Virus record (IMG/VR): IMGVR_UViG_3300028045_000001
Location: 175,961-239,960 of that record
DNA from: a virus
Length of the DNA: 64,000 nucleotides
Strand: one strand, 5' to 3'
A model generated the notes under the pieces. That model worked only from the letters and a program-made list of their open reading frames with translations. It made no database searches and had not been told where the DNA came from. Positions 1,764 to 62,768 of the stretch are shown piece by piece. Every line of letters starts with the position of its first letter. Within the stretch, counting starts at the first letter, position 1. A program made the translations under genes and the position numbers.

Positions 1764-1805
1764 ATGTATGGAATCTTGACTATGGACATAACTAACGGGG
1801 TACAC

Positions 1806-15784: not shown

Positions 15785-15823
15785 CACTCCGATACTGTCC
15801 ACTGATGGACAGTATCGGAGTGC
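15784..15823. terminator. Bidirectional terminator between convergent genes
   Basis: Perfect 18-bp stem with a 4-nt loop, followed on the plus strand by a run of eight T (15830-15837). It lies between the end of the Hint-like array and the end of the minus-strand beta-prime gene, so it can serve both. It is one of only two hairpins in the window followed by a T-run. Confidence 0.75.
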
Positions 15824-18434: not shown

Positions 18435-18445
18435 GGAGTTTGATT

Positions 18446-27291: not shown

Positions 27292-27323
27292 TTATAGTCT
27301 GCCCTACGTAGGGCAGACTATAA
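27292..27323 (+). terminator. Perfect 32-bp palindrome
   Basis: Fully self-complementary from 27292 to 27323, 2 nt after the stop codon; an A-run rather than a T-run follows on the plus strand. Confidence 0.55.
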
Positions 27324-32081: not shown

Positions 32082-32118
32082 TACCTTGGCCTTGCCTACT
32101 ATAGGCAAGGCCAAGGTA
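32082..32118 (+). terminator. 17-bp inverted repeat before the adhesin array
   Basis: Perfect 17-bp stem, 3-nt loop, no T-tract. About 50 nt later comes an AT-rich stretch (AATTATATAAAC near 32165) that may be the promoter for 32248. Confidence 0.55.
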
Positions 32119-32247: not shown

Positions 32248-33075
32248 ATGAGTCCTAATTTACCAATAAATGATTATACTATCGCCCAACAACAAGCATT
32301 GGTTAAAGTCAATGCAAAGACACAACTGGCCAATGGTAGCAATAGGACGTTGACTGAGATAAAGTCTGAAGTATTGGATACTAAGACTACATTAGAAAGC
32401 AAGGTCAATGGAATGTCCCCAAGACTCGACAATGTGAATGTAGCCATCCCTAATAAAGTGATCGAATTTGGTGCCCTTATAGCGGAAGAAGAAACATTAT
32501 ACCAGAGCATCTCCCAAGTTGCTACTACAAAATTCACAATGACACTTGACGGCAGTGTTGAAAAATTTTATCCTGTATGGTTTAAGTTTAATTCCGAAAC
32601 CATTAATTTTTTGGAGATATATAGGAATAAGAATCTAAACAGTGAGTTATTTGTTTTAGATAAAACTATACCAAGTGGGTACATATACATTGAAGGATGC
32701 GGGTACGACCCACTTACAGAATTACCCGGTAGACTAACCGTACGGTCATTCAATGAAATCGGAAATAAATGCATGAGTCTACCTAGTCCTAATCTGTATA
32801 GCAGTAGAGAAATTAATTCTGAAAAGGGGTACTACACAGTTGGGATCTCTGGAATTTATCTGCGTGGAGGATTAACCTATAATTTCCGATGTAACGATCT
32901 TGATGTTATACACAATATTGAAACCATATTTAACGATGGAACCAAAGACGCTTACACCATAACTGGCGTGGATGGAGAAGAGTACTATGCAGAAGCTACT
33001 ACAGTCGAAGACTGTGATAAAATAGATTGGGATGCGTCAATAAGCCCATTGTACGGAACCCAACAACAACCATAA
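32248..33075 (+). CDS. Adhesin-array protein 1 (FYP/YLRGG module)
   Basis: 275 residues, start ATG 32248 with AGGGGAATG upstream. The first 95 residues are helical, likely a trimerising coiled coil. The shared module then runs from FTMTLDGSVEKFYPVWFKF (FYPV at 107-110) to a GIYLRGG motif near 205, ending with a strand and a short acidic tail. The whole protein is N-terminal stalk plus module and has no further domain. With its nine neighbours it is probably a tail-fibre or receptor-binding unit; this rests on copy number, modular layout and phage context. Confidence 0.65.
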   Translation: MSPNLPINDYTIAQQQALVKVNAKTQLANGSNRTLTEIKSEVLDTKTTLESKVNGMSPRLDNVNVAIPNKVIEFGALIAEEETLYQSISQVATTKFTMTLDGSVEKFYPVWFKFNSETINFLEIYRNKNLNSELFVLDKTIPSGYIYIEGCGYDPLTELPGRLTVRSFNEIGNKCMSLPSPNLYSSREINSEKGYYTVGISGIYLRGGLTYNFRCNDLDVIHNIETIFNDGTKDAYTITGVDGEEYYAEATTVEDCDKIDWDASISPLYGTQQQP

Positions 33076-33185
33076 AGCATTTGACTGTTCAACCGGAACT
33101 GATAGTGTGGATTGTAGAAACCTTCTACCGACAATCTGGTGCCATGCTTCGGTATCAAACGCATAAAGATTAAGGGATATTGATT

Positions 33186-34964
33186 ATGAGTGCAAATTTA
33201 TTAACGAGTGAATATATTCGAGCTCAACGAACCAACATAGCTACCGTTGAAGACAAAATACCAAGTGCTGATAAAACTAGGACCGATATATCGGAACGCC
33301 TTGTTGAAGATGCGACTTATGCCACAGAAAAAAATATATTGTTAAATAGTAGAGACGCTAAAAGTACGGAGTTAGAGAACCACAGTAATGATAATAACGA
33401 ACTCCTGACTGAGGCAACTACGACGATAAATTCTAATGATGCGATAGTTAAATATAACTATAAGAATGAAATAGAGTTTGTTGTGAACGGAGAAATAAAT
33501 AAATTCTATCCAGTCTGGTTTCTTACTGGAACAGTAGGGCCGGCACCATCTCAAATATATGGAAGTATTTACATAGACGTTATCCGAACATCTGATATGG
33601 ATAGGCTATTGTTTGCCAATGACCCATCAAAGACTCCGACCGTTTATATGCACATCGATGCTGACAGCACAGATAGATGTAAGAATGTACCAACTGATTT
33701 TAAAGTTAGAAACTACTCTCCTAAACATGTAGAGTGTATCGCTATACCGAATAAAAAGTTATATTGTTCAAAGACACGATTTCCTTGGTTGCCCAAATAC
33801 CAACATCCGGTGTTATCTGGATTCTATGTTAGGGGCGGTATTAAATTTAAAATTTTTACCGATAGTGAGCAAGTTTCTAATGCACTCATAGCCAGAATGG
33901 AGTTACCGGCACTGGATGAGTACAACATTCAATCTTCTGGAGAGGATGACTACTATTGTAGAACTATAAAGGAAGAACACATTACACACATCCCATGGGG
34001 CATATCTGCATATAACTACCCTACGGAATATGCTCCGTTGGTTGGGGATACAGGATTATTGGTTGGTGGCACCTCCGCAGGCGATATTATAACCAGAAAT
34101 GAAATAGGCTATATATCAACTAAAGCCGCTACAATTGGTGCAGGTAACTTAAGTTTCCATATGGTACAACCGGAATGTGCCTCGAACGGTGGGAATGATA
34201 TCTGTGTTACAACTGGGGATGACGACGATAGTCTTGGGAACAGTCACGATGCGCAGTCTATTGTATCGACGGGATCCGACACACTTACGACTGCTGCGAT
34301 GTCTAAAGGCGTTAGTCTCAGTAAAGGAACATCCAACAATGTAAGTGATGTAGCTGTATTTACTGGAGGAGTAGGGTCGGGTGTACCCCTAACTGATATA
34401 CGGAGGGTTGCAGTACCGACTGTGGCCGAACATGCAGTTGTCGGTAATTTATTGGGAGCCGTAGTTGGCCATGTGTGTGATTCTAATGGGACACTTGATC
34501 AGGCAGTAGTAGTTGGGGGACATGAACTCGATGGAACACAATCCTCGATAGTGCAACAGTTCATTATTTCAACTGGATCGAACTCTGCGAAGACAGCTGA
34601 CCTGACAACGTATACCAAGTATGGAGAGTCCACCTCAATTGGTAATAGCGTAGGCGACCAAATTACAATTGCTGGTGGAAAAGATATGGAAAATGGGGAT
34701 GTTGTTATCCCACACATATACAGTTCTGTTGTGTCAACAGGAGCGGATGTAAATACGACGAGTGACCTTTCTATAGCTACGGCTACAACTGGAGGTACCT
34801 CAAATGGCACAGGTGATATTGGAACTATATATGGAGTTGGAGGAGATGGCGGGGTTATGTCAGACGAGTTACAGCAACTTGTTGTCTCTACCGGAACCTA
34901 TAGTTCGCAAACTAACAACGTTGCGACTGCTTCCATTTTAAATGGCGCTGCATCTAATGCATAG
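33186..34964 (+). CDS. Adhesin-array protein 2 (FYP/YLRGG module plus kelch-like repeats)
   Basis: 592 residues from ATG 33186 (GGGAT upstream; TTG 33180 is also in frame). A helical stalk of about 95 residues is followed by the module (KFYPVWF about 107; FYVRGG about 214). From about 285 to the end come repeats of about 50-60 residues built as (I/V)STG...L...(T)SNG...GD...GG. They resemble the kelch-like GDL...SNGTRGxFGGG repeats of other phage tail proteins and probably form a beta-propeller. The propeller end may contact the receptor. Confidence 0.65.
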   Translation: MSANLLTSEYIRAQRTNIATVEDKIPSADKTRTDISERLVEDATYATEKNILLNSRDAKSTELENHSNDNNELLTEATTTINSNDAIVKYNYKNEIEFVVNGEINKFYPVWFLTGTVGPAPSQIYGSIYIDVIRTSDMDRLLFANDPSKTPTVYMHIDADSTDRCKNVPTDFKVRNYSPKHVECIAIPNKKLYCSKTRFPWLPKYQHPVLSGFYVRGGIKFKIFTDSEQVSNALIARMELPALDEYNIQSSGEDDYYCRTIKEEHITHIPWGISAYNYPTEYAPLVGDTGLLVGGTSAGDIITRNEIGYISTKAATIGAGNLSFHMVQPECASNGGNDICVTTGDDDDSLGNSHDAQSIVSTGSDTLTTAAMSKGVSLSKGTSNNVSDVAVFTGGVGSGVPLTDIRRVAVPTVAEHAVVGNLLGAVVGHVCDSNGTLDQAVVVGGHELDGTQSSIVQQFIISTGSNSAKTADLTTYTKYGESTSIGNSVGDQITIAGGKDMENGDVVIPHIYSSVVSTGADVNTTSDLSIATATTGGTSNGTGDIGTIYGVGGDGGVMSDELQQLVVSTGTYSSQTNNVATASILNGAASNA

Positions 34965-34978
34965 GGAGATATTTTGTA

Positions 34979-37900
34979 ATGAGTGATAAAAAAATAATAA
35001 TCGGGGATAAAACTATATCCGACATATCAGATGACATTTCAATATCCAACAGCGATAGTACCATATTGGCATCTGGCAAAGCGTATGATTCTGTTTATAA
35101 AGAATTGACCAGTATTATCCAAGGTACGAAACAAGGCCAAATAACTGCACTTAATCAGAGACTAATAGAAGCACTCGATGCATTACAAGAAATAATCGAT
35201 GAGAATAATGATAGTTTATTTGATATCCAAGATGACGATCTGTCTGCATTGAGAACTGTTCTTGAAAGAGGAAACCTGATACGAGCAGATATTGTGAATA
35301 GTGGCATACAATATGAACTCACTGAAACCGGACATGACGTCAATGAATACGCCATAGACTGCTTAGAGCAATTTGTAGCGGGTTTAATTACAGACACCGG
35401 ACACTCTGCCATAGTAACCGTCGGCGGTGATGCTACTAAATTTTACCCCATTGTTTGGCCATTTCCAACTGGTTATGTTGGCACTGTTCGGATTGAGCGA
35501 GATAACACTCTGCCAACTGGTCACTCCGACCTAAGTATGTCGTTGTTCTTTAAGTGTTATGGATTTGGTTCGGGTGTAGATGTGAATGAATCACATGAGT
35601 TCAGAATAACTGACTTTACTGAGGCGAATGGAATATCCCTTAGGCTCGCAAGTCAGGATGTGTTCAATACTCCAAGCGGACTAGATCCAGTGAAACATGG
35701 CACTTACTCCTGCCCTATTGGAAACTGTGTGTTTTTAAGAGGGAATACGCAATACAAAATAACATGCAGCGATGTAGCTATACTGGCAGCTATCCAAGTT
35801 TCAGCCGATAACGTCGTGTCGAATTCCTTGCATGAAATAAACGGATACACTTACAATGTATCATGCATAGATGAGTCTATTATAACTAATATAATTAGTG
35901 ACGAGCGATTAAAATGGCTATTCCGTCAGCAGCATGTTATTAATACTAATAAGGTCAATGCTGTAACAGGTATGAATGTCCCAGTCGACTCAACTACTGG
36001 GAATTATTCAATAACATGGGGTACAACGAGTACTGCGGACGCAGAGTATGTTCTCGAACAAGCAACAGATTCTAATTTTTCAGATACTGTCGAATTGTAC
36101 AGTGGCCCGAATAGACAATTGGAGTTCATCGACCATGGTCCAGGGATTTTCTACTATAGAGTTAAAGCTATCAAATCTGGCTTAGCTGGAAGTGATTGGG
36201 TAGTTGGATCCGACACATGCTCTGTTGTTAAGTATCTATCTCGACCAACGGGCCTCACTGTTCCTGAGATGAGTACAAACGATGGCGAATTCACTGCGAA
36301 TTGGGCAGGCACATTACCAGTTAATGCAGAATACGTTCTTGAGTATGCCTTACAACACCAGTACTTGGATGCAGTTTCGATATACCAAGGGACAGATACA
36401 AGTAAACAATTTGTACATCTGGAACTTCCCCAAGATAGGTATTATTTTAGAGTTAAGATTATTAAAGAGAACTATACGGATAGTAGTTACTTCGGCGGAA
36501 CTACATGCTTAGTCATTATAGTTGCACATGCACCAGATTCAGTTAGCGTACCAGATGAAAATGAGTCTGGTTCTTTTACTACCACTTGGGCTCCAACAAC
36601 AACGGCGGATGGTAGCTATATACTTGAACGAGCTACTGAATCCGACTTCAGTGATGCGACTCAGTTCCCAATTACTACGAACCAGTATGACAATATCGAC
36701 CTACTAACGGATACGTATTATTTTCGTGTAAAGACGGTATGTGTTGGCATGACGGATAGTGATTGGGTGGAATCAATTCCATGTGTTGTTACAAGAACCA
36801 TTGTCAAGCCCTCAGAGTTCATCGTGCCGTCCGATAATTCGACTGGGGATTTCATGGTACGTTGGACCCGCTCACCTGAAAGCGACGTTACCTATATTGT
36901 TCAGTATTCAAATGATTCTGACTTCGGGGATGATGCTATAGTTGAAATACAGACTACTGGCACTACCCATAGCTACACCGACATATACCCAGATGTGCTA
37001 TATTTTAGAATAAAGGCTATTAAGGATAACATGTACGATAGCCCATGGGAAGGTGGATCTACCAGTATAACTGTAACAAGAACAGTAGAGACTCCAATGG
37101 ATATCGTTGTTCCATCAGACAACAGTGATGGGACTTACACTATCAGTTGGACTGCTACAGAGACGCCTGAGGTCATGTATACACTTGAAGAGTTTACAGA
37201 CAGTGACTCTCCTGATAGCACTGTTACAAGAAGCATCGATTGCACTGACGCGTTCTTTACCTTTTTGGAACAAGTTCCCGGAACATACTACTACAGAGTA
37301 CGTGCCAGTAAAGAACCAGATTGGTATCATAGTGACTGGGGAACAGGGGAAACTGGATGTGAGGTCGAACGAACTGTAGAGCTTCCGTCATTAACAGTCC
37401 CACCAAACGACCATGATGGGGATGGTGTATTTAATATAGTTATAGGTCCATCTGAAACTGCAGGTGCGTCATATGTAATTGAAGTCACTGCAACTGATGG
37501 CTTCTCTGATGAAATCAATGTAGCAGCCGGCTCCTCGCTGACTATTGCAATGTTGGATTTGGATCCAGACATTTATTCTTTTAAAATCATGGCTACGAAA
37601 CCGGAATGGGAGAATAGTGATTGGGTAGATGGTAGTGATCCATGCGACGTTCGAAGAATTATAGAGCCTCCAACAAATTTTATTGTTACTGATTCTAATC
37701 TTACTGGGGATCTTACCGTAGCTTGGACAGCTTCTCCAGAAGAAGATGTCGCATATGTTCTTCAGCGTGCCACAGATGATTTATTCCCAACAGAATCTAC
37801 ACTTGAAGTGCAAGTAACAGGTACTTCATATAGTTACACAGATGTCCAACCAGGAGAACATTATTTTAGGGTCAAGGCCACCAAGTCTGAATGGAGGGAT

Positions 37901-40072
37901 AGCGATTGGGCGATCGGTAGTTGCGAAGTGAACAGGCAACCTGCCCCACCAATAAGCCTATCGGTTCCAAGCAACTCTCCAATTGACACTGTTGGTTTAG
38001 TGGAACTGACTATAGTGCCGCCTTCTGTCGCTAGTGACATTAGCAACTATGTTATCGAACGATCTACTCAATCAACCTTCGATCCATCGGATACAGTTGA
38101 AGTGTATTCTGGTTCTGGACTCAATCCAACCATCACTGAAACCATGCCAGGCACATATTGGTACCGAGTTAGAGCCATAGGATTAGATCCAGCTACTTGG
38201 GATCCGAGTCCTTGGACAGTTGGCGGTAGTTGCGAGGTAGAAATAAAAGTTGCAAAACCAAGTTCATTAACTGTGCCTGAAACTAACGACGACGGATCGC
38301 CGGTCTTAAATATAGTTGCATCTAGTTCCAATGTAACTTATGTGGTAAACCGCGCAAGAGCATCGAATTTTTCAGATGCAACTGAAATTTATAGGGGAGG
38401 GGGATTAGTTGTCATTGGCGGATCCAACTTGAATCCAGGTACTTACTACTACCAAGTCCGAGCTATTAGGAATAATTGGAAAGACAGTGACTGGACTAAT
38501 TCACATATCTCATGTGTGGTGAGTAGGACTGTCGTCAACCCAACGGGATTAACCGTGCCGCCAAACAGCGCTGGAGGAAATATAGCCTTGACAATAGGTG
38601 CATCTTCTACGCAAGGCTGCGTGTATGTCGTAGAAAGAGCCCTTAATCAAAGTTTTACACAGGGAAGACAGACTGTCTACACTGGCCAAACGCCATCCTG
38701 TTCGGCTCCTGTAGGAGGGGTTCCAAATAGGTATTATTTTAGAGTTAGGGGAATTAAAACGAACAATTGGAAAAGTAGTGCTTGGGTACCTGGCAATACC
38801 TCTTGCTTGATTACACCAAAGTTGAGAAATCCAACATATTTATCTATACCGCCAAGGTCTGTAAAGGACGCTCTTATGCCGGTAGTTATAGGGGCATCTC
38901 CAGATGCACCAGATTATTATGGAATATACATGTCCCGCTACAGTGACATGGCTAATCAATATCAAGTGTATCAAGGCCCTGCTCAAAATCCTAAAATTAC
39001 TATAGGTTCAGTTATTGGGGCATCGTATTTTCGAGTTAAAGCGTTTAAATCACAATGGGCCAGTAGCGATTATGTGGGAGGCAATAGGCCGACCAATAGC
39101 CTACGATATGGCGACGATGGTATGTTTACGGGAGGAACACAAGATAATGCTTATTTAGATAGTGCCCATAACGTAAAGATATCTACCGGCGCTATATCTT
39201 TTAATAGCGGCAACGTCACCAAGAGATCATATCATGGCATGGCATCCGACAGTCACAATGATAATTACATAGTACACGCAGGCCGCAAAGGACCAGATAG
39301 TGGAGACTTGCTCCAAAGTTCTGTCTATGGCAATGTATCGACAAGTAGTGTTGCAACAGTAGGAGGTGTTATTTCAACATGTCGCCTTTCCCTTTATTTA
39401 GATAATGACGTTGAAGGCCAATATGTTGTACTTGGTGGCTATAAGTCCAGTGGCAATAGGGATGTCTTAAAGGGCCACATATCCACTAGGCAAGAGACAC
39501 TTTCTGCGGTCGGCGACAATACTGCCGTATATGGTTCTGTTGGAGGAAATAAGGAGGATGTAGGATTCTTTATCCCGGGAGCATTCTCTTGGACCAGTTC
39601 CGGTAACTATCGAAGAAGCGTATTGGATGCGAGTGCGCATTTCATTATTTCTACTGAAGTAAGAAGTGAAACCACTGAAAGTATTTCTACAAGACACTTC
39701 TCTAGTTCCGTAGATAATAATAGTGGCGATACCATGATAGTTGTCAATGGGAGAAGATACCTTAAGTGGACAATATACGGGCCGAACAATAGATTGCGCT
39801 CTTATTACTACGAGGATGATATTACTTCAAATGATAAATATATCATGTCGACTGGAGTGCTATCTATGGGCGTCAGCGATTTATCAGAACCTTATGGGAT
39901 CGGCGGCTGTCAAAGCGGAGCAAATAACTCTATTAATTCCGAAGGGGTCATAATGGGAGGTAATGCCTCTGTAACAAAAATAACAATTGACACAAATGCT
40001 ACAGCCACAGATATTGGTTCTTTGCCAAATCCAAATGTGCTCATGAATCCTGCCGCAACCAGCAATGGGTAA
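34979..40072 (+). CDS. Adhesin-array protein 3: 11 FN3-like repeats plus kelch-like domain
   Basis: 1697 residues, the largest in the array. Order: an N-terminal module starting MSDKKIIIGDKTISDIS shared with 44805, 47486 and 47664; coiled-coil region; the FYP module (KFYPIVWPF about 154; FLRGN about 253); then 11 fibronectin-III-like domains of about 90 residues (about 325-1370). Each FN3-like domain has a YYFRVKA-type G strand and a DSDW motif. Kelch-like STG...SNG...GG repeats finish the chain (about 1380-1697). The FN3 stack gives a long extensible arm with a propeller tip, as in a long tail fibre. GGGAG lies about 13 nt before the ATG. Confidence 0.72.
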   Translation: MSDKKIIIGDKTISDISDDISISNSDSTILASGKAYDSVYKELTSIIQGTKQGQITALNQRLIEALDALQEIIDENNDSLFDIQDDDLSALRTVLERGNLIRADIVNSGIQYELTETGHDVNEYAIDCLEQFVAGLITDTGHSAIVTVGGDATKFYPIVWPFPTGYVGTVRIERDNTLPTGHSDLSMSLFFKCYGFGSGVDVNESHEFRITDFTEANGISLRLASQDVFNTPSGLDPVKHGTYSCPIGNCVFLRGNTQYKITCSDVAILAAIQVSADNVVSNSLHEINGYTYNVSCIDESIITNIISDERLKWLFRQQHVINTNKVNAVTGMNVPVDSTTGNYSITWGTTSTADAEYVLEQATDSNFSDTVELYSGPNRQLEFIDHGPGIFYYRVKAIKSGLAGSDWVVGSDTCSVVKYLSRPTGLTVPEMSTNDGEFTANWAGTLPVNAEYVLEYALQHQYLDAVSIYQGTDTSKQFVHLELPQDRYYFRVKIIKENYTDSSYFGGTTCLVIIVAHAPDSVSVPDENESGSFTTTWAPTTTADGSYILERATESDFSDATQFPITTNQYDNIDLLTDTYYFRVKTVCVGMTDSDWVESIPCVVTRTIVKPSEFIVPSDNSTGDFMVRWTRSPESDVTYIVQYSNDSDFGDDAIVEIQTTGTTHSYTDIYPDVLYFRIKAIKDNMYDSPWEGGSTSITVTRTVETPMDIVVPSDNSDGTYTISWTATETPEVMYTLEEFTDSDSPDSTVTRSIDCTDAFFTFLEQVPGTYYYRVRASKEPDWYHSDWGTGETGCEVERTVELPSLTVPPNDHDGDGVFNIVIGPSETAGASYVIEVTATDGFSDEINVAAGSSLTIAMLDLDPDIYSFKIMATKPEWENSDWVDGSDPCDVRRIIEPPTNFIVTDSNLTGDLTVAWTASPEEDVAYVLQRATDDLFPTESTLEVQVTGTSYSYTDVQPGEHYFRVKATKSEWRDSDWAIGSCEVNRQPAPPISLSVPSNSPIDTVGLVELTIVPPSVASDISNYVIERSTQSTFDPSDTVEVYSGSGLNPTITETMPGTYWYRVRAIGLDPATWDPSPWTVGGSCEVEIKVAKPSSLTVPETNDDGSPVLNIVASSSNVTYVVNRARASNFSDATEIYRGGGLVVIGGSNLNPGTYYYQVRAIRNNWKDSDWTNSHISCVVSRTVVNPTGLTVPPNSAGGNIALTIGASSTQGCVYVVERALNQSFTQGRQTVYTGQTPSCSAPVGGVPNRYYFRVRGIKTNNWKSSAWVPGNTSCLITPKLRNPTYLSIPPRSVKDALMPVVIGASPDAPDYYGIYMSRYSDMANQYQVYQGPAQNPKITIGSVIGASYFRVKAFKSQWASSDYVGGNRPTNSLRYGDDGMFTGGTQDNAYLDSAHNVKISTGAISFNSGNVTKRSYHGMASDSHNDNYIVHAGRKGPDSGDLLQSSVYGNVSTSSVATVGGVISTCRLSLYLDNDVEGQYVVLGGYKSSGNRDVLKGHISTRQETLSAVGDNTAVYGSVGGNKEDVGFFIPGAFSWTSSGNYRRSVLDASAHFIISTEVRSETTESISTRHFSSSVDNNSGDTMIVVNGRRYLKWTIYGPNNRLRSYYYEDDITSNDKYIMSTGVLSMGVSDLSEPYGIGGCQSGANNSINSEGVIMGGNASVTKITIDTNATATDIGSLPNPNVLMNPAATSNG

Positions 40073-40111
40073 TCGGTACAACTGTATTTAAAGTTAAATT
40101 ATTTTTACATC

Positions 40112-40145
40112 ATGAGGAAGTTCTCCTGTAGGAGAACTTCCTCAT
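40112..40145 (+). terminator. 16-bp inverted repeat
   Basis: Perfect 16-bp stem, 2-nt loop, 40 nt after the stop of the 1697-residue gene, no T-tract. Confidence 0.55.
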
Positions 40146-40161
40146 TAATAATGTTTTAAGA

Positions 40162-40171
40162 TATTATATAC
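40162..40171 (+). promoter_or_regulatory. Promoter-like TATTATATAC
   Basis: It lies 16 nt after the hairpin and 41 nt before ATG 40212. Confidence 0.5.
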
Positions 40172-40211
40172 AACTAATTCAATATTATTAAGTTATCTAT
40201 GAGGTGAGATT

Positions 40212-42950
40212 ATGAGTGGCAACACTACTGTAGATGTACCAGTCACGGACGATGACATGGCTGAAAAAGCATGGTTAGAGAACAGAATGGAGGATGAATT
40301 CAACGAAATGAATTCCAATACTTCTGAACTTGAAGCATTTAAAAATGAAGGCAACATTGTAAAGCAGAATATATTCAACAACCAAGTGCTGATCGATAAA
40401 GAAAATGCAGAATTAGAATTGAATCTATCGAAGCAGGCACAGAACTTAACTGACCATGCAATTCGATTGGAAAATATCCAAGACGAATTGGCAGAGCTAA
40501 AGTCTGGAGTTAACTATACCTTAACTTTTACTATGGGTGGGAACTTAAATCAATTTTTTCCAATGGCATGGGCCATAACTTATGACGCTATAGTTAGAGT
40601 CATTCTATCAAGAGGATCTGATCAAAATACTGAATTGTTTACTGGCGACGCTATCCCTCCGGGAGTATACTTTGATTTGATTCAAAAGTTTGACAATGCT
40701 GCAACAAACAAAGTCGGTTTTTTTAGAGTCAATACAGATCGGTATACGGGGCAAGCATGTGTGAAAATACCAAGTGATAAGTTACTTTCCACACTAACTG
40801 AAAATGGCAACCTTAGTACCTATGATTATCAGAATACCGGATACAGTGGATTTTGGTTACGTGGGGCACTCACCTACACTGTTGCCACCAATGATCCAGA
40901 CGTCATGCTCGATTTACAAAACTGTATTGATAAGAGCAACGAGAGTGATCCAATTTATAACTGGGATGATAACAAGCCACAGGCGCTGCCACCTACTAAT
41001 TTTCAAGTACCTGATACAAGCACATCTGGTACCATCCTATTGTCCTGGCTCGCATCCGATTCCCCGTTAGCTTCATACATTGTGGAGGAATCAAAGCTCC
41101 CAGATTTTCACACGTCAGAGATAGTATATACTGGGGATGATGCTTCCATAGAGTTAGAGTATATGGAGCCCGGTACATACCACTACCGGGTCAGAGCAAC
41201 CAAATCACAATATGGCGACAGCCCCTGGGTTGGATCCACAGAATGTGTTGTTACGAGGACTACGGAGATCCCGGATACAATCTATGTGCCAAGTACTAAT
41301 GATGATGGGGACTTAGTTGTGTCCTGGACTACTTCCGAAACCCCACATGCGTCATACACATTAGAAGAAGATACCGATCCATTGTTTAGTGATCCTACCC
41401 AATTATATATTGGTTCTGATACGACCCACTCTATAGTCAACCAATTAGAAGGAGTGTATCACTATAGGGTCAAATCAATTCGCTCTGGGTATGCGGATAG
41501 TGATTGGGTAGAAGCAACAAATTCACTTTCCGTAACTAAGAATATGAGTCCAATTGATGGTATGGATATACCGACAACCTCCTCTGGAATATACATTGTG
41601 ACATGGAGCGCCCTATCTAATCCGACTTCCGATATAATCTACACCATAGAAGAGGCGACGAATGTAGGGTTCACTGAGAACCTCATATCGCGGATCACTG
41701 CGGATACATTTGCGAACTTCGACCACGATGAATTAGAACTCGGGGCGTTCTATTACCGAGTAAAGGCATCTAAAGTTGGATGGAATGATACCGGTTGGAC
41801 AGAAGGATCAAATGCCTGCATCATATCAAAAACTGTGGAGCCACTGAGTGATCTTGTGATCCCAACTTATAATGAGACCGGTGAATTTACAATAAGTTGG
41901 GCACCCTCCCCAACTGAGAATATAATATACGAAATACAGGAAGCAATCGATATAGACTTTAGCAATGCCCAGTCTATCGCACTTCAAACTGGACTGTCAG
42001 TTGAACTCACTGGCAAAGTTGAGGGAGAGTATTACTATAGGGTTAGAGGAATAAGAACTAACTTTACGTCGAGCGCGTGGACACTCGGGGAGAATCCGTG
42101 CTTTGTACGAAGAGTCGTACCTACTCCATATTTCACCGAATATCCAGAGACAAGTGAATCTGGCAATTATTCCATCTCTTGGGATGACATGTTGCCAGGA
42201 TGTACATACACTTTACAGGAATCTACTTCTGGGGAGCTGTCTGACTTTAACACAATATTTATTGGCACCGCCCGTACCTATCACATAGAGGCTCAAGATC
42301 CTGGAGAATACTACTACCGAATCAAGGCCTCGAGAGATCCGCTCAATGATAGTGATTGGCAAGCATATCAAGCTGCAGTGAATGTGTCAAGAGTTACTCT
42401 CAAGGCATCCAATGTCATTGTGCCAGTCAATAATGGAACTGGGGACTACGGCATAACGTGGGATGCCTCAGAAACAGCTGGTGTTACCTATGAACTACAA
42501 GAATCCACTTCCGTTGATTTTTCGACTGTAGCAGTGATATACGTGGGTAGCAATACTACAACTTCCATATCGGATAAAGCGCCTGGCACGTACTATTATC
42601 GAGTCAGAACACTTAAGAGTGGATGGGTATCTTCATATTCTGAAAGTGTGGATGGCTGTCAAGTTATACGAACCACTGATCCAGCGGGAGAGATCTCCAT
42701 TACAGCTACTGGCACTAAAATTGATATAGACTGGCCTAACTCTGAAACATCAGATGTAACCTATGGGGTCAACGTGGTGTGGTCCGGGGAAACAACTGGG
42801 CACTATTATAGCGTAAGTAGTTTGACATCGTCCATCCTAAGCATCGACGCATCCAATTGGGAAGCAGGCCAATATACATTTAATGTTACTGTCGATAAGC
42901 CGGGCTGGTTTAGTTCGAACACGTACAGTGCACCTTATACATGGTCGTAA
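40212..42950 (+). CDS. Adhesin-array protein 4: FYP-type module plus seven FN3-like repeats
   Basis: 912 residues, GAGGTGAG upstream. The first 100 residues are acidic and helical. The module is recognisable but altered (QFFPMAW about 114; WLRGA about 215). Seven FN3-like domains of about 90 residues then run to the C-terminus, most with YYYRVRA and DSDW motifs, the last more diverged. Unlike protein 3 there is no kelch-like tip. Domains resemble those of protein 3 closely enough to suggest exchange between the two genes. Confidence 0.7.
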   Translation: MSGNTTVDVPVTDDDMAEKAWLENRMEDEFNEMNSNTSELEAFKNEGNIVKQNIFNNQVLIDKENAELELNLSKQAQNLTDHAIRLENIQDELAELKSGVNYTLTFTMGGNLNQFFPMAWAITYDAIVRVILSRGSDQNTELFTGDAIPPGVYFDLIQKFDNAATNKVGFFRVNTDRYTGQACVKIPSDKLLSTLTENGNLSTYDYQNTGYSGFWLRGALTYTVATNDPDVMLDLQNCIDKSNESDPIYNWDDNKPQALPPTNFQVPDTSTSGTILLSWLASDSPLASYIVEESKLPDFHTSEIVYTGDDASIELEYMEPGTYHYRVRATKSQYGDSPWVGSTECVVTRTTEIPDTIYVPSTNDDGDLVVSWTTSETPHASYTLEEDTDPLFSDPTQLYIGSDTTHSIVNQLEGVYHYRVKSIRSGYADSDWVEATNSLSVTKNMSPIDGMDIPTTSSGIYIVTWSALSNPTSDIIYTIEEATNVGFTENLISRITADTFANFDHDELELGAFYYRVKASKVGWNDTGWTEGSNACIISKTVEPLSDLVIPTYNETGEFTISWAPSPTENIIYEIQEAIDIDFSNAQSIALQTGLSVELTGKVEGEYYYRVRGIRTNFTSSAWTLGENPCFVRRVVPTPYFTEYPETSESGNYSISWDDMLPGCTYTLQESTSGELSDFNTIFIGTARTYHIEAQDPGEYYYRIKASRDPLNDSDWQAYQAAVNVSRVTLKASNVIVPVNNGTGDYGITWDASETAGVTYELQESTSVDFSTVAVIYVGSNTTTSISDKAPGTYYYRVRTLKSGWVSSYSESVDGCQVIRTTDPAGEISITATGTKIDIDWPNSETSDVTYGVNVVWSGETTGHYYSVSSLTSSILSIDASNWEAGQYTFNVTVDKPGWFSSNTYSAPYTWS

Positions 42951-42962
42951 TAAAAAGCAAGC

Positions 42963-42996
42963 CATATGTCCCTTCTCATATGAGAAGGGACATATG
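42963..42996 (+). terminator. Perfect 34-bp palindrome
   Basis: Fully self-complementary, 12 nt after the preceding stop codon, no T-tract. Confidence 0.55.
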
Positions 42997-42998
42997 AA

Positions 42999-43008
42999 TA
43001 TTATATAA
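42999..43008 (+). promoter_or_regulatory. Promoter-like TATTATATAA
   Basis: It begins 2 nt after the palindrome and ends 42 nt before ATG 43050. Confidence 0.5.
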
Positions 43009-43049
43009 CTAAAAAAAGACAAATCCTTAAAATAAGAGAAGGTGAGAGT

Positions 43050-43871
43050 ATGGCTAATGGCGATGTAACTGATGCGCAGATGGATATGAAGGACGAACTC
43101 GAGGATACAAAACTCGGGCAGGATATTTCGATAGAGTATACTGTCCAGAGAGTCGATAGTCTTAACGCGGACGTCCCAACTAAAATCGAAGGTGTGTCCG
43201 ACATAGTCAATTCTACAAATGCAAGCATTATAAATTTGGAAGCGACCTTTAATAACTATACCACTAATTATTTAAATCGCATCAATAGATTACCTATAAT
43301 CCAGACCGCGTACGATAATTACGAACACAGACTATGGCGATTAACTTTCCTACTGCACGGGACTATTTCTAACTTCTATCCTATTCGCCTCAAGCTCAAT
43401 GGTGATGTGCTAAAAAAATTCTCTATATATAGGAATAAAAATCAGGAGACAGCAGCATTCGTGGCATTGGGTATACCAAGTGGCGGAGTCCGACTAAACG
43501 CACATACTATTGGAAACAGTAACTCAGACGGAAATAGAGTTTTTAGGATTTTAAATTATGAGGAAGAGGGGTCTAAGTGCATCGGGGCGATAGGGTTAGA
43601 TTTATATGGATCAGTATCTGGAGAAGACCCAGGTTATGATTGTAACTCTCATGCTGGGCTATATTTACGAGGTGGGATAAGCTACACTCTTGAAACCAAT
43701 GATCGGGAACTGATGAATGATCTTCAGGATTTTTTGGAGTACGCCGGATCTACTGATCCATGGATAATTGGGGACTTTATAGCAACAGCACTAACCCTTG
43801 AAGAAATTTCTTTACTGGATAATGACCCGAGATTAAATCTTAACTACCTTGAGGGCAGGGGTGGGATATAA
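43050..43871 (+). CDS. Adhesin-array protein 5 (FYP/YLRGG module)
   Basis: 273 residues, GAAGGTGAG before ATG 43050. Acidic helical stalk, then the module with NFYPIRLKL (about 108), IYRNKNQE, and LYLRGGISYTLE (about 205). It lacks accessory domains. The IYRNKN motif is shared with protein 1, and RGGISYT with protein 6, so this is one of the canonical copies. Confidence 0.65.
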   Translation: MANGDVTDAQMDMKDELEDTKLGQDISIEYTVQRVDSLNADVPTKIEGVSDIVNSTNASIINLEATFNNYTTNYLNRINRLPIIQTAYDNYEHRLWRLTFLLHGTISNFYPIRLKLNGDVLKKFSIYRNKNQETAAFVALGIPSGGVRLNAHTIGNSNSDGNRVFRILNYEEEGSKCIGAIGLDLYGSVSGEDPGYDCNSHAGLYLRGGISYTLETNDRELMNDLQDFLEYAGSTDPWIIGDFIATALTLEEISLLDNDPRLNLNYLEGRGGI

Positions 43872-43909
43872 GCCTTATATCCTTATTTGAACAACGAAGG
43901 AATAAAATC

Positions 43910-44692
43910 ATGACAGAGTTCGCAACTGATGTACAAATGACTTTAAAGCAGTCTACGGATGCGCAACGTGAAGAACAACATCCAACAATAATTGCAAACC
44001 GTGAGGTCATTAACGAGATAGACACGGTCTCCTTTATAATAGGAAAAGTAAATGTTGTCAACCTTGTTGATGACCGAGTCACCGTAACCGAAGAAACCCT
44101 ACAAGCATTGATTGATAACTATGCTGTAGATTATTCTGATTATCGATCAAAATTAAATTCATTCAAGACTTCTGATATGGGATTGATAGAATATAAGTTC
44201 ACTATGTTCGGAGACATAAATAATTTTTATCCACTCCCATTTAAATTTAACAGCGACATAGTTAAACGGTTTTCTATATACAGAGGGATTCATGATGACT
44301 CATCTACATTCACCGCAAATGGGAAACAGCCCAGTGGAGGACTGATCCAACTAACTGGCTCTAATGCCATATTTAGAATAAATGCCTACTCTAACGTTGG
44401 AGACATATGCATGCAGCTCCTTAATCAGCGACTGTACTCCTCATACAATGGGGACCCTGAGACATTTAGTTGTAGCGAGACTAATGGGGTGTACCTTAGG
44501 GGAGGAATAAGTTACACAATAGTTGCCGATTCATTTAGCATGATCTCAGACATAACTGCCCACATATCCATGGGACTCCAACCGAATTGGGCATGGGGAC
44601 TACATGTGGCAGAATCTATACCTGACACCAACATAGAAAGTATAGAACAATCTAATGTATATGAGAATGACAATCATCTGGAAGGCAGGTAA
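43910..44692 (+). CDS. Adhesin-array protein 6 (FYP/YLRGG module)
   Basis: 260 residues, AAGGAATAAA before ATG 43910. Helical N-terminus of about 90 residues, NFYPLPFKF (about 106), FSIYRG and VYLRGGISYTI (about 195). Ends with a short tail after the module. Cotranscribed with protein 5 (38-nt gap). A 42-bp palindrome follows. Confidence 0.65.
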   Translation: MTEFATDVQMTLKQSTDAQREEQHPTIIANREVINEIDTVSFIIGKVNVVNLVDDRVTVTEETLQALIDNYAVDYSDYRSKLNSFKTSDMGLIEYKFTMFGDINNFYPLPFKFNSDIVKRFSIYRGIHDDSSTFTANGKQPSGGLIQLTGSNAIFRINAYSNVGDICMQLLNQRLYSSYNGDPETFSCSETNGVYLRGGISYTIVADSFSMISDITAHISMGLQPNWAWGLHVAESIPDTNIESIEQSNVYENDNHLEGR

Positions 44693-44710
44693 TACCTCCA
44701 CATAATATAC

Positions 44711-44752
44711 TTCTATGGCCCACTCCTTTTATAAAAGGAGTGGGCCATAGAA
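44711..44752 (+). terminator. Perfect 42-bp palindrome
   Basis: The longest uninterrupted palindrome in the window, 18 nt after the stop codon, with no T-tract. Confidence 0.58.
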
Positions 44753-44762
44753 TACTATAGGC

Positions 44763-44772
44763 TATTATATAA
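44763..44772 (+). promoter_or_regulatory. Promoter-like TATTATATAA
   Basis: It ends 33 nt before ATG 44805 and begins 11 nt after the palindrome. Confidence 0.5.
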
Positions 44773-44804
44773 CTAAACAAACTTTTCATTACAGGTGATA
44801 AACT

Positions 44805-46664
44805 ATGTCTGATAAAAATGTACTGATAGAAGATAAAATAATAAAGGGTATATCGGACGAATGTCCAGAAACGGATGGGTCAGAAAATATACTGGTATCT
44901 ACAAAAGGACTGTACGATCTAAGGCAAGAACTGTTGGCCCAAATTATAGCGGCCGATGGTAACATAATTGAAGTGGTTAACAACGAACTAATAGTTGCCT
45001 TGACTAAACAACTAGGAATCATAAACTCTAATTCCCAGCTAATAGCTGAGATAGATACCATCATTGACACAGGCTTCGATGACATAGAGAACTCGGTTTC
45101 AGTCATAGAAGGAGAGGTGACTACAGTAAATGAGAATATGATTGAGTTAGAAGAGAAAAGTGCACAGTCCACTACTAATTTAAATAATCTAAATTCGGCC
45201 CTGGCCCGTATGGAAGTTCGCGATTTTGTCAGCATAACAATAGATGGCGATGATGACAAATTTTATCCGGTATACTGGAAATTTGACAATCACGAACCCT
45301 GCACTATAGTCATCAAAAGGGACGGTGCTGGGGAAAGTAACAGGGGAGTATATATAGAACTGGTCGGTATTGGAGGTAACGTCAAAGAAGAGTATGCCAG
45401 ATCATTATTCATAAAAGAGTTCACCGATAAGGGCGGGATCAGTGCAAAATTATTAAGTTTAAATATGTACTCATTTGAGGGCACCGGCAATCAGGGAAAC
45501 TCTGATTTTATAGCACATTGTGCAAGTGGACTGTATCTTAGGGGTGCGGCAACATATCAATTATATTGTGAGCTACAGTCAATACGAGTCGCTATACAAA
45601 GCCAAGTTATGGATGGGGTAGCTAGTGTAAAATCTGTAAGTGAGAACAGTCGAACGTACATGATGATCCCCATATCTGAATCTGACATGGTGGCGCTACC
45701 ATCTGATCCAGCACTGCGATTTGAAAATTCCATAAACAAATACATCATGCCTGGCGACATAGCGGTTCACCATGGTGGACAATATACATTTAACTCTGAT
45801 TTAACTCAAACAAATAGTATCCACCAATCATCTGTGTCTACTGGCGCTGCTGCTGTCATCACAGGAACCTTGCCGATTGCTTTATGGGGCATGGTGGCAA
45901 CATCAAATAGTTCCGGAGACATTGCACTCTCCGCAAGCGGTGAATCGGACATAACTTCCTTCGCATTTAAATATAAGTCCATTATATCTACTGGTGGAGA
46001 TGCCATACCTCTGATTTCTTTGGCTAACCCACAAAAAAACATGGCATCAACTTCCAATGGGTATAAGGACATGGCCTGCTTCATTGGAGGTGGGTCCGAT
46101 GGAAACTATTCAAGTTCCATTGAAAAAAATATAATTTCAACGGATGTCGTTGTGACAACTACGCCACAGATGGCAGTAGCAACTGGGAATAGTGGCGCAA
46201 CCTCTAACTTGATCTACGATACTGGAATATTGGTAGGTGGACAAGTTGACAACGGTAACAGTATGGCAGTGTTGACCGACGCCATACATCAATTTGTTGT
46301 ATCCAATGATGTAGATTCCATTGTAACAGGCGCACTAAATATATCCTGCGACGGTGGGCGGCTTGTTTCAAATGGCATCGCTGATACTTGTCTGGATGTA
46401 GAGGGATCCCCCGTTGTAGAGTATGCTAGAACTATCATCATATCTACCGCAGCTAACTCCGTACTCTCCGGGAGCATAAATACATACGGTTATAAATCAG
46501 CATCCCAAGCATCGAATTCAGTTGGGGATAGGGCAGTCTACGCTGGTGGGGACGCATACACTGACACCATAAGACAGTATGTTATTTCCACCCCATCGTG
46601 CGCACTTGCACCAGGGGCACTAACAGAATCATTACGAGCTGCTGCCGGTACATCCAATGGATAG
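44805..46664 (+). CDS. Adhesin-array protein 7 (FYP/YLRGG module plus kelch-like repeats)
   Basis: 619 residues. It begins with the MSDKNVLIEDKIIKGIS module shared with proteins 3 and 9 and the orphan at 47486. A coiled-coil stretch (about 60-140), the FYP module (KFYPVYWKF about 152; LYLRGA about 244) and kelch-like ISTG...TSNG...GG repeats (about 320-619) follow. It has the same plan as protein 3 without the FN3 arm. AGGTGA precedes the ATG. Confidence 0.68.
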   Translation: MSDKNVLIEDKIIKGISDECPETDGSENILVSTKGLYDLRQELLAQIIAADGNIIEVVNNELIVALTKQLGIINSNSQLIAEIDTIIDTGFDDIENSVSVIEGEVTTVNENMIELEEKSAQSTTNLNNLNSALARMEVRDFVSITIDGDDDKFYPVYWKFDNHEPCTIVIKRDGAGESNRGVYIELVGIGGNVKEEYARSLFIKEFTDKGGISAKLLSLNMYSFEGTGNQGNSDFIAHCASGLYLRGAATYQLYCELQSIRVAIQSQVMDGVASVKSVSENSRTYMMIPISESDMVALPSDPALRFENSINKYIMPGDIAVHHGGQYTFNSDLTQTNSIHQSSVSTGAAAVITGTLPIALWGMVATSNSSGDIALSASGESDITSFAFKYKSIISTGGDAIPLISLANPQKNMASTSNGYKDMACFIGGGSDGNYSSSIEKNIISTDVVVTTTPQMAVATGNSGATSNLIYDTGILVGGQVDNGNSMAVLTDAIHQFVVSNDVDSIVTGALNISCDGGRLVSNGIADTCLDVEGSPVVEYARTIIISTAANSVLSGSINTYGYKSASQASNSVGDRAVYAGGDAYTDTIRQYVISTPSCALAPGALTESLRAAAGTSNG

Positions 46665-46711
46665 TGACAATATATAAATATATAAATGCATAGATGTATA
46701 GCGAGGTAACT

Positions 46712-47455
46712 ATGACGACACCAATGAAATTTAAAACGACATTGAAACAAGCTTTAATTTCATCTAAAGAGCTACATAGGAATAGCAAGAGATTATATAA
46801 AAAACATAGCTCGCTTCAAGGTAATCAGCGGGCCACATCTATTCAGTTGCGAACACAGAATGAACTGCACAAAAACTCTATCGATTTAATCAAGGCGAAG
46901 CTATCTTACGCTAAGTCAATGATCGATCGTATCGACTCAGATAAACTAAAGAATGCGGATGCCCTATCTTTTATAAGACCAAAGGAAGTTACTTTCATGG
47001 TGAGTGGAGATGAGAACACATTCTATCCAATCATGTGGGACTTTCCAAACGACACCGACTCCGTCATTATAATAGCACGTGATGCGAGTAATGTACACTG
47101 TAGTACTGCGCCTTCGCGTGTACCAAGATTGTTTTTCAGGATGGTGTCAGGATCGATTCCAATAGATGGAGTCCGTTACTGTGCGGATGTGGATATGTTT
47201 GTACAGGATGGGGATGAGGTATTATTACACCCCTCCAATCAAATGCTATCGTCACTAAATGATCCGAAAGCTGAGAAGCACCACCATTGTCCAACTAAGT
47301 GTGGGTGCTTTCTTAAGGGTGGCACAGAATACAGATTGCTTTATAGCACAAAGTCGGTAAAGGATCAAATATTGCACTGGGCCGAAAACACTGTCGATGA
47401 GACAATGCTCACTTCAGGCGACGATAAGTATTTTGTACATTCTATAGTTAGCTAA
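46712..47455 (+). CDS. Adhesin-array protein 8 (FYP/YLRGG module, basic stalk)
   Basis: 247 residues from ATG 46712 (GCGAGGT upstream; ATG 46694 is in frame without a site). The N-terminal stalk is strongly basic, unlike the acidic stalks of its neighbours. The module shows TFYPIMWDF (about 104) and FLKGGTEYRLL (about 200), with a His/Cys cluster just before it (HHHC...C.C) that could bind metal. Confidence 0.63.
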   Translation: MTTPMKFKTTLKQALISSKELHRNSKRLYKKHSSLQGNQRATSIQLRTQNELHKNSIDLIKAKLSYAKSMIDRIDSDKLKNADALSFIRPKEVTFMVSGDENTFYPIMWDFPNDTDSVIIIARDASNVHCSTAPSRVPRLFFRMVSGSIPIDGVRYCADVDMFVQDGDEVLLHPSNQMLSSLNDPKAEKHHHCPTKCGCFLKGGTEYRLLYSTKSVKDQILHWAENTVDETMLTSGDDKYFVHSIVS

Positions 47456-47485
47456 TATAAATCAACACATGAGGAAACTACTGTA

Positions 47486-47659
47486 ATGAGCAATAAGCAA
47501 ATCCAAGTAGGTAAAACTATAGTCGTTGGTCTGATGGGAGAGTACGACGAAACCAATGTCCACAGTGGCACTGTTATAACCCAAGCGGATCTTACGGAGT
47601 TGGCCACAAAAATGAAGAACGCTATCCAAGATGCGATAGAATCAGACTCGGGGGATTAA
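47486..47659 (+). CDS. Orphan N-terminal module of the adhesin family, 57 residues
   Basis: ATG 47486 with GAGGAAAC upstream opens a 57-codon frame ending TAA 47657-47659. Its start, MSNKQIQVGKTIVVG, matches the N-terminal modules of the proteins at 34979, 44805 and 47664. It stops where those proteins go on to the coiled coil. It could be a stand-alone attachment or chaperone subunit, or the remnant of a deleted fibre gene. The intact start, ribosome site and stop favour real expression. Confidence 0.6.
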   Translation: MSNKQIQVGKTIVVGLMGEYDETNVHSGTVITQADLTELATKMKNAIQDAIESDSGD

Positions 47660-47663
47660 GGAT

Positions 47664-48572
47664 ATGGCTGACATCAAGGTACTGATTGATGGTGTTAAAA
47701 TAACTAAAGTTGTAAATGAGTACAATCCAAATTTAGCTCCATCTGAGAAAACCGTAGTGTCGCAAAGCATAATACCACAAATGTACGACATGGTTCGAGA
47801 TGGATTGGCGATAGGAGAGGATGATGCTTCTGTGCAAGAATTACTGTCTGCATCTAATGCGGAATTAGATGCGGCAGAAGTGACCATGAAATTCACTGGG
47901 GATAATATCGACCTACATAATGACTATGCCGATATCATCACTACGGTAGAGGAGATGGAAATAGTAAATGCTCAGGCTCTCGCCGCCGTTACAGCTGCGG
48001 AAGCCGCCGCCACTGCAGCCCAAGCAGAGTTATATGCTGTACCAAAAGTTCATGAAAGAACCTATCGCTTGGGAGGCAGTGACAAGTGTTTCTATCCAAT
48101 CTGGTTTGTTTCCCATCCAACTGAGTTACATACATTAATAGTATCTAATGCGGAGTTGCTGTGTGAAATAGATATCATAGGTGGAGGCGATGAAAATTTA
48201 AATGTTAGAGCTATGCATATAACTTCTATCACACAGGACCCAGAAAACAAATTACTATTGTTGCCAGGAGTGAGCATGTATAGTCGTAAGGGCAATTCCG
48301 CGTATGGGTATTCGTGTTCGAACAGGCACGGCATCTATCTTAGAGGAGGGAGATCCTACACGGTTCAGTCATACTACAAAACAATGATAGATGAGCTGGC
48401 TGCTCCATTTGTAATTGGAACTGTCGATAGTTCGGTGGAGCAGGATACATCAGCTATCGAAGAAACCTTCCATTTGGTGTTTGATTCCATCAGGTATACA
48501 ATGAAAAAACTCACTGAAACCGAGGTTGACGCGATACCTATCGATCTGAGGGTTTCTGGGGCAACGGTATAA
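47664..48572 (+). CDS. Adhesin-array protein 9 (FYP/YLRGG module)
   Basis: 302 residues, starting 4 nt after the orphan module. It has the MADIKVLIDGVKITKV N-terminal module, an Ala-rich coiled coil (about 95-125, many AA pairs), CFYPIWFV (about 143) and IYLRGGRSYTV (about 225). There is no added tip domain. The module is intact and lies directly behind its shortened paralogue. Confidence 0.65.
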   Translation: MADIKVLIDGVKITKVVNEYNPNLAPSEKTVVSQSIIPQMYDMVRDGLAIGEDDASVQELLSASNAELDAAEVTMKFTGDNIDLHNDYADIITTVEEMEIVNAQALAAVTAAEAAATAAQAELYAVPKVHERTYRLGGSDKCFYPIWFVSHPTELHTLIVSNAELLCEIDIIGGGDENLNVRAMHITSITQDPENKLLLLPGVSMYSRKGNSAYGYSCSNRHGIYLRGGRSYTVQSYYKTMIDELAAPFVIGTVDSSVEQDTSAIEETFHLVFDSIRYTMKKLTETEVDAIPIDLRVSGATV

Positions 48573-48589
48573 AAGGGATAGAAAATATC

Positions 48590-49348
48590 ATGATTGAAGA
48601 AATGGATAAGTCAACAAATGCGGATAGGTTGATTCTACGCGATCGTGTGGTTGATATGAGACGAACACTAAAAGAAAAACACACCGCATATATCAGCTTG
48701 AAAAATAATCAACAGAAGGTTAGAAACTTAGCCACTCATAAATTGAGTCAAATTAGCAATGCTATATCTGACTCCAATAAGCACATAGATGCCACTTCAA
48801 CTGCTTTGGCTACTGCTACTCAGATACAATCGGGGTTCCATGGAGCACTGGTTAAAAATAAACATCGGGTGAGACAGCAAGTTATACTCCCCTTAACCGG
48901 GGAGCCTGATAAGTTTTATCCAATCATACTAACGGGAATCGACGAATGTAAAATTAGGTTTTCTATAGCTACCGGCCACAGTCAAGATGATTACCTTATT
49001 GAAAAAATCTCTATCCTCGGCTCAAATAGCGGTAGCTCTATATGTGAGTTGAAAGAGGAGTTTCTTAGTGCTAAAGGGAAGAGATATATTTGCCTCTTGA
49101 ATACTAAAATGTGGTGTGAGTTGAATGGACACCCTGCATCCTTTAGTTGTCTACATCATCAAGGATTTTATTTAAGAGGAGGTACAACTTATACAGTTTG
49201 TTCAGATCATCAAGATATACTAACTAAATTAATAATTAACTTTAGTCGACCTATGTCTGATACATACACACTCACTAATAAATCCGATACTATGATCTTT
49301 AGATCAATACGTGATACAGAACTTATTCAAACATTAGATCGAATGTAA
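48590..49348 (+). CDS. Adhesin-array protein 10 (FYP/YLRGG module)
   Basis: 252 residues, AAGGGATAG upstream of ATG 48590. Basic helical stalk (about 1-95) like protein 8, then KFYPIILT (about 108) and FYLRGGTTYTV (about 193). It is the last array member. The next gene is a membrane protein behind a different promoter type. Confidence 0.65.
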   Translation: MIEEMDKSTNADRLILRDRVVDMRRTLKEKHTAYISLKNNQQKVRNLATHKLSQISNAISDSNKHIDATSTALATATQIQSGFHGALVKNKHRVRQQVILPLTGEPDKFYPIILTGIDECKIRFSIATGHSQDDYLIEKISILGSNSGSSICELKEEFLSAKGKRYICLLNTKMWCELNGHPASFSCLHHQGFYLRGGTTYTVCSDHQDILTKLIINFSRPMSDTYTLTNKSDTMIFRSIRDTELIQTLDRM

Positions 49349-52722: not shown

Positions 52723-52764
52723 ACACTTAGACGCTGATAGGATGTCCTATCAGCGTCTAAGTGT
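52723..52764 (+). terminator. 20-bp inverted repeat
   Basis: Perfect 20-bp stem, 2-nt loop, 4 nt after the stop codon, no T-tract. AATATAATTATAA follows and may be the next promoter. Confidence 0.55.
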
Positions 52765-57414: not shown

Positions 57415-57442
57415 TACGGATGGTTCATATGAACCATCCGTA
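57415..57442 (+). terminator. Perfect 28-bp palindrome
   Basis: Fully self-complementary, 11 nt after the acetyltransferase stop codon, no T-tract. Confidence 0.55.
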
Positions 57443-58795: not shown

Positions 58796-58829
58796 TGTAA
58801 CATGTTGGTGCGTACACCAACATGTTACA
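58796..58829 (+). terminator. 15-bp inverted repeat with downstream T-run
   Basis: Perfect 15-bp stem closing CGTA. A run of T follows about 12 nt later, near 58842, so it could work as an intrinsic terminator only weakly. Confidence 0.55.
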
Positions 58830-59928: not shown

Positions 59929-59968
59929 AGGTGGCTCTGGGTACCACATGTGGTACCCAGAGCCACCT
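59929..59968 (+). terminator. Perfect 40-bp palindrome
   Basis: Fully self-complementary, 26 nt after the stop codon. An apparent start at 59931 lies inside it, so the next gene is taken to start at 60009. Confidence 0.57.
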
Positions 59969-62734: not shown

Positions 62735-62768
62735 ATAAATAATGGAAGTCACCAAAGGAGACTCTGCA

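Follow-up and report, generated by a model that had tools for sequence, protein, structure and literature searches.

It has been previously reported that phiKZ-like phages carry families of paralogous virion proteins. In the available text of one such report, three families are distinguished in SPN3US, and the gp131-like one is a candidate for a baseplate or fibre role (PMC5694885). The phiKZ proteins gp131, gp133, gp134 and gp135 (SPN3US gp168-170) form a paralogous array of tail or baseplate proteins with a common N-terminal part, and SPN3US paralog family B is a large array of short virion paralogs. For the jumbo phage phiKp24, the accessible part of the published description gives fourteen putative fibres, graded in length and with beta-helical depolymerase folds, in a branching model built from T4gp10-like domains (PMC9700779), and the available text of a 2026 review attributes fibre-decorated capsids to PTm1 and PTm5 (PMC13282480). 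Here we describe an array of ten paralogous genes in the terminal 64 kb of a 239,960-base IMG/VR virus record (IMGVR_UViG_3300028045_000001), a stretch of 64,000 nucleotides that we call the window. The ten genes are consecutive open reading frames (ORFs) at positions 32248-49348, all on the + strand, and each encodes one copy of a module marked by an FYP...LRGG motif.

The matches to virion RNA polymerase subunits in the window assign its source to the phiKZ-like jumbo phages, the group in which the gp131 and family B arrays are also found. The likeness to both ends at their organization. The gp131 group lacks the FYP...LRGG module, and its members were rejected as relatives of the array by blastp and by comparison with a profile of outside modules; gp131-type matches number one ORF in the window phage, five in phiKZ, several in SPN3US and OBP, and one in Vibrio phage sm033. 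Family B consists of head proteins and was likewise rejected, with an hhalign score of 0.1% and no blastp match at E≤0.1 (17 of its 20 members compared). The array resembles the phiKp24 set in that a single jumbo phage encodes many proteins whose lengths are graded, but the phiKp24 fibres are beta-helical depolymerases, whereas Pfam and PHROGs gave no depolymerase match for the array and, at profile level, no pectate-lyase or beta-helix family in the ten proteins. In the titles and abstracts listed by literature searches on tail fibres, paralogs, kelch domains, branched fibres and phiKZ or SPN3US we did not find the array described; the module, being nameless, was not searched for by name.

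Ten copies of a PHROG 10758-type module

The motif was sought as F[YF]P[VILM] and, 70-120 residues on, [YFW][LV][RK]G, among 226 ORF stretches from all six frames with a minimum length of 60 amino acids. An earlier note on this DNA had described ten neighbouring genes with one such module each, and this observation is confirmed: the scan gave ten matches, one per array gene and none elsewhere in the window, with 82-107 residues between FYP and LRGG. The motif as then worded, FYP(V/I/L/M) followed by Y/F-L-R-G-G, is present as a pair in all ten genes but not to the letter: FFPM and WLRGA stand in gene 4, YVRGG in gene 2, FLRGN in gene 3, YLRGA in gene 7 and FLKGG in gene 8. A degenerate DNA scan for FYP...YLRGG returned three matches, none with an in-frame motif. 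The genes are also paralogous, as had been proposed: every array gene matches another member at E 3.5e-6 or better in an all-against-all blastp, the phrog_10758 profile matches all ten (E 2.5e-9 to 0.0018), and a profile of the ten run against the 239,960-base record finds ten places, which are the ten genes. Pairwise module identity to gene 1 is only 17-28%, which indicates that the duplications are old. In the alignment of the ten, the only invariant module columns are G, F, P and G; these look structural, and the stretches between them differ in length and sequence.

The module had earlier been held unassignable to any named family, a statement that no longer stands. On profile comparison it is assigned to the tail-fibre module of PHROG 10758 type, which is already catalogued and present in many other phages. 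Residues 461-568 of the tail fibre Ah1_00340 of Aeromonas phage Ah1, whose gene is located between short-tail-fibre genes, match phrog_10758 at 1.3e-10 and read KFYPV...VWLRGGG; ME3_103 reads YYPV...VYLRGG. Vibrio phages Brizo and Ceto, Fusobacterium phage phiFN37 and the crAss-like cr114_1 also carry a homologous module, with FYP or YYP and LRGG in register. All nine members of an alignment of outside modules (seven phage records and two plasmids) match the PHROG profile, and hhalign of this alignment against the ten array modules gave 97.4% (E 1e-11), with FYP over FYP and LRGG over LRGG. The earlier note had suggested looking for the module in other phages by profile, and it was found there, including in tail-fibre proteins. 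Furthermore, when every window ORF was searched with a profile of the outside modules alone, containing no window sequence, six of the ten array genes were recovered at E≤2.1e-4 and nothing further at E≤1. Weak matches to phrog_10758 are not decisive by themselves: sm033 matches at 8e-4, lacks the motif and was rejected as a carrier.

When the Ah1 domain was used in tblastn, 49 phage records were matched, 39 of them annotated as tail or tail-fibre and most of them near-identical Vibrio phages, together with five plasmids, four carrying a 'tail fiber domain-containing protein'. In a prophage contig (L109), a 225-residue stalk and module protein matches phrog_10758 at 1.1e-59 over most of its length and has the same architecture as the short array members. 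Its gene follows baseplate wedge, tail protein and tail-fibre genes and precedes a tail-fibre-assembly gene, and these neighbours argue for a tail association of the module outside the window. A PHROG of 'unknown function' therefore becomes a recognisable tail-fibre module in P2-like prophage, T5-like, T4-like and crAss-like phages. In a Pedobacter sequence (L122:5342-7186), two tandem module genes encode proteins with an apparent signal peptide (judged by eye) and a C-terminal coiled-coil-like part, which suggests that the module is not restricted to phage tails but is found on bacterial proteins that seem to be exported as well.

AlphaFold2 run on the alignment of the ten modules predicted for gene 1 a beta-rich domain at residues 91-260, with blocks of predicted local distance difference test (pLDDT) values of 66-94, mostly at least 84. 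Foldseek matched this model to ten predicted viral structures at E≤0.001, four of them named as tail or tail-fibre proteins; an S74-type protein of cr114_1 (2.2e-8) and the Ah1 tail fibre (3.9e-7) headed the matches, which included ME3 (1.3e-5), with a probability of 1.00. T4 gp9 and the C-termini of Acinetobacter tailspikes were rejected as the family, with VIA Z values of only 4.6-6.2. An enzymatic role was also rejected, as the ten have no conserved candidate catalytic residue and no Pfam enzyme family above the cut-off. No result was obtained from a PDB sequence search with the ten, from tblastn against named phages with genes 1 and 5 as queries, or from scans of viral contigs for close relatives of gene 5, of A2, of the virion RNA polymerase beta subunit and of the repeat domain in gene 7.

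What distinguishes the array is the ten copies, not the module itself. Scans with five closer outside members yielded 57 viral and 9 genomic loci, and on these 66 loci the profile of the nine outside modules found one copy in 65 and two in one; identical counts came from a joint profile able to recognise every one of the ten window copies. In addition, 35 of the records behind these loci were searched whole: 32 had one copy, often within a long open frame, and three had two, with the second match split or stop-containing. A stop-containing second match accompanies the single intact copy in two large viral contigs, L065 (402 kb, G004:C1:321755-322081) and L066 (G005:C1:25016-25342). These counts, in which divergent paralogs could be missed given that the outside profile finds six of the ten and most records are fragments, led us to reject ten copies as the ordinary state of the module. 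In a 77-row tree a branch supported at 100/99 sets the ten apart from the other rows, and their end branches are long; the tree was rooted at the midpoint and the long branches call for caution. One clade with long branches fits an expansion inside one lineage.

Stalks, accessory repeats and satellite genes

Six array genes have no extension C-terminal of the module. These are gene 1 (32248..33075, 275 residues, helical stalk, module at ~32512-33009), gene 5 (43050..43871, 273 residues, module at ~43320-43814), gene 6 (43910..44692, 260 residues, module at ~44171-44644), whose top blastp partner is gene 5, gene 8 (46694..47455, 253 residues, basic stalk, module at ~46967-47446), gene 9 (47664..48572, 302 residues, IxxDK-type start, module at ~48036-48533) and gene 10 (48590..49348, 252 residues, basic stalk, module at ~48860-49339). 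The remaining four are extended. Gene 2 (33180..34964, 594 residues, stalk, module at ~33450-33983) and gene 7 (44805..46664, 619 residues, IxxDK-type start, module at ~45207-45686) each continue with a connector and six repeats of about 50 residues. In gene 4 (40212..42950, 912 residues), an acidic stalk and the module (~40500-40976) are followed by FN3-type repeats, and gene 3 (34979..40072, 1697 residues) combines an IxxDK-type start, the module (~35387-35899), the connector, about ten FN3-type repeats and a domain of ~50-residue repeats (39134-40069). The start codon of gene 2 is TTG, with an ATG two codons further in.

The helical stalk of the earlier note is seen in the gene 1 model, at low confidence. 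The note had divided the stalks into two kinds, acidic or basic helical ones and those with an IxxDK-type start: net charge is positive in genes 8 (+11) and 10 (+8) and negative in the other eight (-1 to -18), and the IxxDK start is limited to genes 3, 7 and 9. The FN3-like extensions are borne out by a Pfam fn3 match over the gathering score in gene 3 only (25.8 bits vs 25, E 1.2e-5) and by homologous repeats in gene 4 (blastp 1.6e-75, period 93-97 residues), which itself has no Pfam fn3 match. The extensions then called kelch-like are not proven to be so, as fold prediction of the ~50-residue-repeat domain reached only pLDDT 28. Its periodicity exceeds that of 200 of 200 shuffles in genes 2 and 7, and the gene 3 repeats taken alone are equalled by 55 of 200. 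A PDB sequence match at E≤0.1 was not found, and tblastn of the domain gave no result. By eye, both boundaries of the domain fall within a repeat, an arrangement compatible with a propeller whose own termini close the ring, and in genes 2, 3 and 7 it is a candidate beta-propeller.

A short connector of the YYxxxIsExe type lies C-terminal of the module in most members; its profile was built from eight of the ten, with genes 4 and 6 omitted. With this profile and blastp, the set that had been described as ten genes at 32248-49348 was found to continue beyond them, in two satellite genes on the + strand that lack the FYP...LRGG motif in the six-frame scan. The first satellite carries the connector and ~50-residue repeats and matches gene 7 (blastp E 3.5e-14 over 368 columns) and the connector profile (E 4.1e-8). 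Its listed start is a GTG at 59931, spanned by a 20-bp perfect palindrome (59929-59968), and the hairpin over this codon makes the ATG at 60009 the likelier start (60009..61052). The FN3-type repeats of the second satellite (61076..62734) are akin to those of genes 3 and 4 and match the gene 3 repeats at 5.5e-12; the connector match of this satellite is not significant (E 0.098). The module-bearing genes remain ten, and the set comprises at least twelve genes within the window. The occurrence of connector and repeats in genes with and without the module indicates that these accessory parts are mobile relative to it.

Candidate roles on the particle

Probably, the products of the array are fibre or tip proteins that bind receptors without being enzymes and that make up one diversified family in a phiKZ-like jumbo phage. 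The N-terminal stalk of every member, probably a coiled coil, would dock its protein on the particle, and the small beta-rich PHROG 10758-type module behind it, with its variable loops, would be the receptor-binding tip. Such a tip on a coiled-coil stalk is suggested by the variable stretches between the invariant columns and by the fibre context of the module elsewhere. In four members an extension of FN3 spacers and/or the repeat domain, a candidate propeller, would place another binding surface at a greater distance from the particle. By computation there are ten homologous modules in one clade, homology to the tail-fibre proteins of unrelated phages, accessory repeats and two satellites without the module. 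A tail or baseplate location, a trimeric state, receptor binding and several specificities on one particle would follow from the fibre reading. The earlier note had proposed a branched set of tail fibres with several receptor specificities on one virion: this proposal is supported in part, the fibre or adhesin identity by profile, structure-library and gene-neighbourhood evidence from other phages; the several specificities are what we infer, and the branching is not supported, as no docking domain was found with Pfam or PHROGs.

Several results weigh against the fibre reading. Whole-model TM (template modelling) scores of gene 1 to its ten viral matches are just 0.21-0.43, the model has no PDB match at E≤0.001, and its VIA Z values of at most 6.2 are under the trust level of the tool. 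The array lies outside the recognised baseplate genes, flanked by the virion RNA polymerase beta subunit and a ThyX-type gene, and the ten-gene profile found the module absent from all 15 phiKZ-like relatives. The largest virion paralog family of SPN3US, itself phiKZ-like, has 20 members and is a head family in the available text of its description (PMC5694885).

This last family bears on an alternative that we regard as unlikely, in which the ten are head-surface proteins (decoration proteins or head fibres) and the tail-fibre-type module holds the particle near cells or mucus. The genomic layout of family B, 17 of whose 20 members are consecutively numbered and which, in the accessible part of the report, was detected in a tailless mutant (PMC5694885), resembles that of the array. 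Furthermore, the two satellites sit between paralogous genes (58914-59903 and 62742-63854, blastp 9e-13), the first of which matches internal head proteins of phiKZ below the cut-off (PF12699, E 7.4e-6). The same hhalign procedure that joined the ten to the tail-fibre family at 97.4% nevertheless gave 0.1% against the 17 family B proteins, and the outside module copies with informative annotation or neighbours fall in tail-fibre genes.

It is also conceivable, but quite improbable, that the array is a combinatorial adhesin kit rather than a fixed fibre. One virion would then bear ten or more structurally interchangeable fibre tips derived from one duplicated module, perhaps on both head and tail; the acidic, basic and IxxDK stalk types would select partners or sockets, and the connector would be the swap point for FN3 and propeller extensions. 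Improbable too is a branched tree of tail fibres as in phiKp24, with some members acting as hubs that bear others. The very unequal lengths of the members (252 to 1697 residues), the IxxDK start common to three of them and the connector shared by genes with and without module are in keeping with such a tree. No T4gp10-like docking domain, the mark of hub fibres in branched sets of the phiKp24, CBA120 and G7C kind, was found in the ten at E≤1 in Pfam or PHROGs, searches that could miss distant versions, and phiKp24, in the available text, relies on T4gp10-like domains and beta-helical depolymerase fibres (PMC9700779), neither of which was found here. That the ten act in heteromeric stalks, with genes 8 and 10 supplying basic partners for acidic stalks, instead of as ten separate fibres, is very improbable, as only the charge difference speaks for it.

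If the ten are fibre or tip proteins, the array would be one way, open to testing, for a jumbo phage to gain a broad host range without depolymerases, and the tenfold expansion of the module in one lineage a natural series for how a small phage domain shifts its target.

Surrounding genes and intergenic hairpins

The array is flanked on one side by ORF 27399-31496, whose match to the virion RNA polymerase beta family reaches E 1.7e-224, and on the other by the ThyX-type gene, past two unassigned ORFs. Further RNA polymerase subunits are encoded at 62-1645, 1710-3923 and 15840-17534. The beta subunit is matched by 294 phage records, with less than 60% identity in all, and megablast of bases 20000-44000 did not find named phages close at the DNA level. 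Some 7-14 kb before the array come a lysozyme and a gene of the 'tail fiber' family phrog_3201 (18440-24700). The only protein with a phiKZ gp131-type (baseplate or tail) domain found in the record is encoded at 7636..9528 on the + strand and is a possible anchor for the array proteins; phrog_13857, the profile of this domain, has a single match in the record (window 8101-8409) and none in the ten array genes.

Perfect hairpins, 14-21 bp in the stem and 0-4 in the loop, occupy 13 intergenic gaps, even though listed genes leave just 6.7% of the window uncovered. The whole window has 15 of them; 19 of 20 shuffled windows had none and the other had one. Intergenic hairpins are found at 1649-1684, 5549-5578, 9537-9572, 10741-10783, 15784-15823, 27292-27323, 32082-32118, 40112-40145, 42963-42996, 44711-44752, 52723-52764, 57415-57442 and 58796-58829. 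They resemble terminators or processing sites that lack a T-run, and would split the array into genes 1-3, gene 4, genes 5-6 and gene 7 onward. Rfam and tRNA scans gave no result.

Elsewhere in the window, ORFs 11379-12164 and 12166-12600 consist of tandem units of about 38 residues with the pattern CKVDxCDxKhxAKGYCxKHY, seven of which are visible by eye in the first ORF. Both match HNH-endonuclease PHROGs and PF19067, and the repeats may be stand-alone zinc-finger-like units rather than nucleases.

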